Shown piece by piece: positions 48,130-50,307 of a stretch of 64,000 nucleotides of DNA. The notes below the pieces were generated by a model. It did not search any database, was not told the DNA's origin, and saw only the letters and a list, made by a program, of their open reading frames with translations. The position numbers and the translations under genes were made by a program. Location of the stretch: the NCBI GenBank assembly GCA_015178975.1, contig WHVD01000037.1:558001-622000 (forward strand). The letters are read 5' to 3'. Source of the DNA: Hysterangium stoloniferum. Taxonomy: Eukaryota > Basidiomycota > Agaricomycetes > Hysterangiales > Hysterangiaceae. How positions within the stretch are numbered: position 1 is the stretch's first letter; every line of letters begins with the position of its first letter.

Positions 48130-49416
48130 ATGTCCGAGTCTCTCCGTTTCATTGGTTCACTTCAAGGCCACAAAGGATGGGTCACTGCGATTGCCACTTC
48201 ATCTGAAAACCCAGATATGATTCTTACTGCCTCGAGAGGTATATCTGCATACCTACCATTACAGAAATATATCTAACGTATAGTCCCCAGATAAGACAAT
48301 CATCGTATGGCAGTTGACCCGCGCAGAGGAGACCTATGGATATCCCAAACGCATTCTCCACGGTCACAACCACTTTGTCTCTGACATTGTCATCTCCTCC
48401 GATGGCCAGTTCGCCCTCTCCTCCTCCTGGGACCACACACTCCGTCTCTGGGATCTCAACTCTGGCCTGACTACCCGTCGTTTCGTCGGACATACTTCTG
48501 ATGTCCTCAGTGTCAGCTTTAGCGCCGACAACAGGCAGATCGTCAGCGGCAGCAGGGATCGTACTATCAAACTTTGGAACACTCTTGGGGAGTGCAAGTT
48601 CGACATTAAAGAGGATGGTCATTCTGAGTGGTAAGTGTATTTCATAATTTAGCCACACGAAAAATACAACTAAACCTCATGCAGGGTATCGTGTGTCCGC
48701 TTCAGCCCAAATGCCATGAACCCCGTCATCGTGTCCTGCGGATGGGACAAGGTCGTCAAGGTTGGTACTAAACTTCGCTTCAACCCTCCCCACCGCTTTA
48801 CGCGGGATGATGTTACAACAATTCTATTTGCTACTTCAGAGGGTCTTCCCAATGAGATTAGAATTTATTCACCAAGATCTCTGACTTCCTTTGATTAACA
48901 CCCAAACTAAATACCGATAACTGACGCATACACTTTTCAGGTCTGGGAGCTCACCAAGTGCAAACTGCGCACTAACCACTATGGCCACACCGGCTACATA
49001 AATACCGTCTCTGTTTCCCCTGATGGCTCATTGGCTGCCTCAGGTGGCAAAGATGGTATCACCATGTTGTGGGACTTGAACGACGGCAAACACCTTTACT
49101 CGTTAGAGGCCGGTGATGTCGTCAACGCCCTTGTCTTCAGCCCTAACCGATACTGGTTGTGTGCTGCCACTGCTAGCTGCGTCAAGATTTTCGACCTTGA
49201 GAGCAAGTAAGTGGCAGGATTTTTAATATTAAACGTATTTATCTAATGTTCTCGCTCAGGTCCATTGTGGATGAACTTAAACCCGACTTTGTGGAGACAA
49301 GCAAGAACGCCCGTGAGCCCGAGTGCATATCGTTGGCGTGGTCTGCGGATGGTCAGACCTTGTTTGCTGGATTCACAGATGACCAAGTCCGTGTCTGGTC
49401 TGTCGTTAATGCGTAA
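48130..49416 (+). CDS. CPC2: RACK1/Cpc2/Asc1, ribosome-associated WD40 protein
   Basis: The seven-blade WD40 propeller is read across six exons: [160 protein letters not shown] and the last blade [16 protein letters not shown], stopping at 49414-49416. RACK1 sits on the head of the 40S subunit, acts in translational control and is a scaffold for kinases and G-protein signalling in fungi. Introns are about 50 nt, except the one at 48761-48940, which is 180 nt and carries a snoRNA. RACK1 is divergent from GCN5 and converges on RPL12. Confidence 0.96.
48803..48888 (+). ncRNA. snR24: Intronic box C/D snoRNA, U24/snR24 type
   Basis: The 180-nt RACK1 intron (48761-48940) contains a C box ATGATGT at 48807-48813, the guide TATTTGCTACTTCAG at about 48824-48838 (start of the D' region), an internal C' box AATGAGA at 48851-48857, the second guide TTCACCAAGATCT ahead of D box CTGA at 48881-48884. 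The two guides are complementary to AGUAGCAAAUA and AGAUCUUGGUG of large-subunit rRNA. By the D-box-plus-five rule the second one points to the C of AGAUC. Both guide segments are the conserved ones of U24 as I know them, and in yeast the same snoRNA lies in the intron of the RACK1 gene ASC1. It directs 2'-O-methylation of LSU rRNA and should be released by debranching and trimming of the lariat. Exact ends are estimated. Confidence 0.88.
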
Positions 49417-49625: not shown

Positions 49626-50307
49626 TTACTCTTCTGGAATCTCAATTTCCCCAGAGTTGATACCGTCAATGATATCATGTGGGGCCTGACCGTCAATCGT
49701 GCAGCCAATACTCTGGGCAGTACCTAACATCTCCTTCGCAACACCGGCCAGACTCTTCGCAAGCGACTTGTTTTGCATTATCCGCGAAATGTTGACGATC
49801 TCGTCCAAAGTAATGTTGCCGTTATGCTTGATGTTTTTCTCCTTCTTGCGGTCCCGTGGCGGTTCTGGGAAGATCAAGTTATTAAACAATAAACTACCCA
49901 TTGTAGTCCATAATACTGCTACCCACCCTTCAAAGCACGGATGATAAGAGAACTGGCGGACGGGACGACGGAGACTTGTGCTTGACGATTTTGGATCGTA
50001 AGCTGGACGGTAACACGGAGACCCTTCCAGTCGCCGGTAGCTTTGGCAATGTCTTCTCCGACCTTCTTCGGTGACTAGTATTGATAATGATAATACTGAT
50101 CAATACACATAATTTGACGATAGCGTTGACGGGACGCACCAAACCCAAAGGACCGATTTTGGGGGCAAGAGCAGCTGAAGCTCCAACTTCACCACCTGTG
50201 GCACGCAGGTAGATGATTTTGATTTCATTCGGGTCCTGGAGAGTAAACAATGTGTCAGGCAATGTTTTATGAAATTTTGTTCGCTGACTTACGAGTTTTG
50301 GGGCCAT
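49626..50307 (-). CDS. RPL12: 60S ribosomal protein uL11 (RPL12)
   Basis: Exon 1 encodes only MAPKL from 50307. The next exons read [30 protein letters not shown], then [39 protein letters not shown] and the C-terminal RNA-binding domain [40 protein letters not shown], ending EIEIPEE at 49626-49628. The protein binds the GTPase-associated centre of the 25S rRNA together with the P stalk. Three introns of about 50-65 nt are canonical. It is tail-to-tail with RACK1 (210-bp gap), so two translation genes sit side by side next to the transposon-rich region. Confidence 0.96.

Follow-up and report, generated by a model that had tools for sequence, protein, structure and literature searches.

RACK1 gene and the snoRNA in its third intron

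The RACK1 gene of Hysterangium stoloniferum occupies positions 48130-49416 of the forward strand of the window, the whole 64-kb stretch of DNA that was analyzed. Splicing at the boundaries of exons 48130-48238, 48291-48630, 48685-48760, 48941-49206, and 49260-49416 gave an open RACK1 frame of 315 amino acids; the introns removed measure 52, 54, 180, and 53 nt. The third intron (48761-48940, forward strand) begins with GT, ends with CAG and, by exon lengths, lies in phase 0 after codon 175; none of the other three introns reaches a third of its length. The coordinates given in the earlier note, and its description of a single long intron, were both borne out. CTGAC at 48921-48925 (forward strand) is a likely branch-point motif, judged from the sequence, and starts 37 nt past the last base of the D box described below.

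The identity of the host, also proposed earlier, agreed with protein comparisons. Residues 1-313 matched solved RACK1 chains (best 4d6v, Gib2; E 1.7e-181), and RACK1, Gib2, and Asc1 chains of the PDB covered nearly the entire protein, with 46 distinct sequences at E ≤ 1e-100. Of the 7988 candidates that were scored in the homologue search, 6586 reached E ≤ 0.001; among the matches listed (the best 120 of 6586), the closest named homologues came from Rhizoctonia (91 and 90% identity), Trametes (90%), and Stereum (89%). With most of exon 2 as query (150 of 312 candidates scored, 173 matches), RACK1 itself was recovered at 99% identity, the next best match reached 58% over part of the query, and no second RACK1 was present among the matches listed. 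The adjacent gene, on the reverse strand (49626-50307), had been named as RPL12 (uL11), and a Pfam Ribosomal_L11 (RNA-binding) domain was indeed found in ORF 49626-49901; ORF 49930-50307 was without Pfam match and is assigned to RPL12 by position only.

Within the third intron lies a U24-type box C/D snoRNA (U24-1; 48802-48888, forward strand, the extent of an alignment covering positions 1-76 of 76 of the Rfam SNORD24 model). Its C..D span is 48807-48884, and the C and D boxes stand at the ends of a predicted RNA in the range of 70-100 nt, as expected for the U24/snR24 type. The C box AUGAUGU (48807-48813) departs from RUGAUGA at its last base, like the SNORD24 consensus. It is followed by the D′ guide UCUAUUUGCUACUU (48823-48836), a degenerate D′ box CAGA (48837-48840) whose register was set by the D+5 rule, a weak C′-like box AAUGAGA (48851-48857), the D guide UUCACCAAGAUCU (48868-48880) and, directly after it, the D box CUGA (48881-48884); all of these are on the forward strand. 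Boxes and guides occupied the positions expected by the model, and the boxes, guide order, and guide sequences that the earlier note had given proved right, with the reservation that C′ is weak and D′ degenerate. The C box begins 46 nt after the start of the intron and the D box finishes 56 nt ahead of its end; intronic snoRNAs of Neurospora mostly lie 41-60 nt from the 5′ splice site, according to PMC2780460. The terminal stem appears weak, with a non-standard pair flagged within the 4-pair model stem, and the minimum-energy fold of the 180-nt intron was without a terminal stem.

The covariance-model search suggested in the earlier note yielded the full-length SNORD24 (RF00069) match, albeit at 32.0 bits, under the gathering score of 41 that formal membership of the family demands (E 0.0096 in 3.2 kb and 0.19 in 64 kb). 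At gathering scores no Rfam family matched anywhere in the 64-kb window, and at a permissive threshold SNORD24 was the sole match with E ≤ 1 in the window among 4227 families. A whole-genome search with RF00069 gave no match at E ≤ 0.001, but was uninformative, as it scored 59 of 34,977 candidates and recovered 0 of 14 controls. The element resembles SNORD24 in its full-length alignment, boxes, and guide cores, and differs from the model in its score, its longer spacers, and the outer edges of its guides, which follow the LSU rRNA of H. stoloniferum itself.

LSU rRNA target and pairing of the guides

The LSU of H. stoloniferum was read from a decayed nuclear fragment, on contig C24, and from a contig, C477, without any C. 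As canonical reference we used a single LSU piece, L019 (IMGVR_UViG_3300029277_000005), whose words at the guide edges are the same in yeast and human. L019 is filed as a viral contig; the eukaryotic LSU piece is located near one end, joined to other sequence, and the contig is likely a chimera.

When up to two mismatches to the canonical target were allowed, the genome search returned a single site, AGATCTTGGTGAAAGTAGCAAATA on C24, inside a short LSU-like fragment of 67 nt that spans the U24 target (C24:1162196-1162262; L001 1466-1532). BLAST with the stretch around this fragment gave seven matches including itself. One was to C477, with 87% identity over 67 nt; on C33 and C212, two pairs of matches to the fragment's flanking sequence, separated by a single base, mark sites without the LSU fragment, and C33 had one additional flank match.

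The rDNA-like contig C477 (C477:1-11013) has 11,013 bases and not a single C (A 4782, T 3160, G 3071). The 53 C's of L019 aligned to C477 corresponded to A in 39 cases, T in 9, G in 1, and a gap in 4, and 191 of the 253 other aligned positions were identical. C477 is probably rDNA whose C's have been turned into A's by an artefact of the data or the assembly; users of this rDNA should be cautious. Among the 67 positions of the C24 fragment, 9 disagree with C477, and 7 of these are C vs. A; CpG decay could account for the other two, provided that one A in C477 represents a C. In both sequences GGTG is followed by AA and AAATA by GA, where canonical L019 has GT and TT, although in C477 the shared A's could mean A or C. 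The LSU target of H. stoloniferum departs from the canonical one in a usually conserved stretch (GGTGGTAGTAGCAAATATT changed to GGTGAAAGTAGCAAATAGA), which suggests that its rDNA is fast-evolving.

Lack of complementarity to the species' own LSU had been named beforehand as one possible refutation of the U24 assignment; pairing was observed for both guides. In the RACK1 copy the D guide formed 13 uninterrupted base pairs with AGAUCUUGGUGAA and the D′ guide 14 with AAGUAGCAAAUAGA of the C24 fragment; the complementarity claimed earlier was real, its extent being larger than the two 11-nt segments then quoted. In a second copy of the snoRNA, U24-2, described below, the longest pairings with this fragment were 14 and 14 bp. 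Against canonical L019 the D and D′ guides reached 11 and 11 bp, in both copies alike, and against C477, with A read as A or C, 13 and 15 bp in the RACK1 copy and 14 and 15 bp in U24-2. The D guide fits the LSU segment holding the equivalent of yeast C1437, and the D′ guide the adjacent segment with the equivalents of 1449 and 1450. The predicted 2′-O-methylation falls on the C of AGAUC, as the earlier note also had it, and on the A (or G) of GUAGC; these sites were placed by the D+5 rule.

The own LSU differs from the canonical sequence at the outer edge of both guides. Compared with the Rfam consensus guide and canonical LSU, four guide-target pairs (D guide positions 12 and 13, and the two outermost D′ pairs) were changed on both sides with pairing kept. 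With the yeast guide as reference, deduced from the primers in PMC4848094, D guide position 13 was double-sided (A-U to U-A) and position 12 changed only from U.G to U-A; this comparison covers the D guide, the edge of the yeast D′ guide being outside those primers. The yeast D guide reads ..ATCACC.. vs. GGUGGU in canonical LSU, whereas that of H. stoloniferum reads ..TTCACC.. vs. GGUGAA. Guide-target coevolution has already been described for Neurospora in PMC2780460, and the changes found here add a case for asking how guides keep pace with drifting rRNA. The window and the L004 region of C124 were also scanned for other C/D guides to the rDNA contig without C; several 12-nt matches on a reduced alphabet came up, a number judged to be within chance.

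A second U24 copy outside RACK1

Used as a DNA query, the snoRNA region matched one place besides itself, with 77% identity over query bases 18-103 of 116; more diverged copies may exist. This match, U24-2, is located on the reverse strand of contig C124 (C124:48227-48320; L004 4934-5024), outside RACK1; it carries both guides, covers the snoRNA and excludes its flanks. As SNORD24 it scored 29.9 bits, and its C′ box, UGAUGAG, is better than that of the RACK1 copy. Boxes and guides were identical between the copies at 39 of 39 positions (C box, D′ guide with D′, and D guide with D box), in contrast with 26 of 37 ungapped spacer positions, 10 gap columns having been set aside (Fisher p 1.5e-4, to be taken as indicative, as the element sets were picked after viewing the alignment). 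Two positions later recognized as part of the D′ guide, and identical in both copies, had been counted as spacer.

GTAAGC occurs 52 nt upstream of the C box of U24-2, and, counted from where its D box starts, four candidate 3′ splice sites follow at distances of 62 to 226 nt. No Pfam domain was found in three nearby ORFs that could point to a host protein, though a longer one may exist, and the host transcript is possibly non-coding. A large, low-complexity ORF of 1022 amino acids for a RING-finger protein (L004 748-3816, forward strand) lies on the opposite strand and converges on U24-2. Retroposition was considered as the origin of the copy, as a 7-nt direct repeat (TTGTTTC) flanks it, and was set aside since the repeat is too short to argue for it. 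The U24 pattern was absent from the sets of viral contigs and genome contigs scanned, and the altered LSU word from the viral contigs scanned.

Interpretation and comparison with other fungi

The RACK1 intron very probably encodes a dual-guide U24 box C/D snoRNA that would guide methylation of LSU rRNA. The boxes, the guides, their pairing with the own LSU, the host intron, and the conserved second copy are seen in the sequence; that the RNA is expressed, assembled into a snoRNP, and active in methylation is inferred. Once the intron has been spliced out and debranched, nucleases would trim it to the C/D core bound by snoRNP proteins. Methylation at the C of AGAUC, the equivalent of yeast C1437, would then be directed by the D guide; the D′ guide would place the methyltransferase on the A of GUAGC and perhaps on its G as well, the equivalents of yeast 1449/1450.

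That an ordinary intron should hold C/D-like and LSU-complementary words by accident is so improbable that we give it next to no weight, and the intronic element is more than chance. The Rfam score below the cut-off would fit such an accident, and single features did arise when the intron was dinucleotide-shuffled 20,000 times: 54 of the resulting sequences had some 11-mer complement of the 24-nt own target, 35 had ATGATG..CTGA spaced 50-100 nt, and 25 had an 8-mer complement beside CTGA. These counts refer to three features taken singly and not to their joint event, whereas in the intron the features co-occur in the right order and spacing, give the one Rfam match with E ≤ 1 across the 64-kb window, and include guides that fit LSU positions departing from the canonical sequence. 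The RACK1 copy might instead be a decaying relic, with the C124 copy as the working U24; this we regard as very unlikely. The better C′ box and 14-bp D guide (vs. 13) of U24-2, together with the weak C′ and weak terminal stem of the RACK1 copy, point in that direction. Against decay speak the 39 identical box and guide positions despite diverged spacers, the presence of the changed guide edges in both copies, a host intron whose exceptional length fits retention for its cargo, and the Rfam score of U24-2, which is lower and not higher.

Compatible with a methylation guide, U24 could additionally act in cis, competition between splicing and snoRNA processing tuning the level of RACK1 mRNA. This addition seems unlikely; what favors it is the general intron-host arrangement only, along with the drop of the putative intronic U24 of Fusarium once debranching is lost, as reported in PMC9606315.

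The RACK1-hosted arrangement has a close parallel in S. cerevisiae, where snR24 (U24) is intronic in ASC1 and guides 25S positions 1437, 1449, and 1450, as documented in PMC4848094; the yeast parallel drawn earlier was thereby confirmed. Host and dual guide are shared, and the stretches TTGCTACTTCAGA and TCACCAAGATCTCTGA are identical to the yeast primers of that source. PMC4848094 gives all three yeast sites as C, whereas counting along the LSU sequence used here puts A and G at the equivalents of the second and third; unlike yeast snR24, H. stoloniferum also has a second dual-guide copy. The snoRNA lies within an intron of the RACK1/ASC1 orthologue, the feature that defines the fungal RACK1-hosted U24 arrangement, and this host-guest pair is now placed in a basidiomycete besides yeast. 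On a comparison of yeast with this one basidiomycete genome, the arrangement appears conserved between ascomycetes and H. stoloniferum. In itself the RACK1-hosted U24 is a conventional representative of its class, raised slightly above routine by the duplicate and the compensatory guide changes.

In Neurospora crassa, CD50 (intergenic) and CD51 (intronic) were matched to U24 and U24b of S. pombe (PMC2780460). As in H. stoloniferum, there are two U24-related loci in one fungus, one of them intronic in Neurospora; each Neurospora locus is listed there with one guiding function, whereas both copies here carry both guides. For U24, that study puts forward two evolutionary routes; for a different snoRNA it discusses a double guide that was duplicated before its copies specialized. 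The two functions are divided between two loci in Neurospora, and a history of duplication followed by splitting requires a duplicated dual-guide U24. The copies described here, with their guide changes, offer a case for asking how a double-guide snoRNA becomes two single-guide ones. We tentatively suggest, at somewhat less than even chances, that both dual-guide U24 genes of H. stoloniferum have stayed functional, the first in RACK1 and the second in a different, possibly non-coding host, and that both tracked lineage-specific changes in an otherwise conserved LSU segment by compensation at the outer guide edges, in a duplicated state that would precede a Neurospora-type split.

A study of intron-poor fungi (PMC8476143) stresses the introns of RPL7 and NOG2, and a term search of its main text found no ASC1, RACK1, snR24, or U24. 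In PMC3511168, U24 is included in a table that traces C/D targets to the last eukaryotic common ancestor, and a putative intronic U24 is listed for Fusarium in PMC9606315. SNORD24.1 of Pleurotus ostreatus, listed in PMC5040776 with the host gene given as g3964, is likewise an intronic SNORD24 in a basidiomycete.
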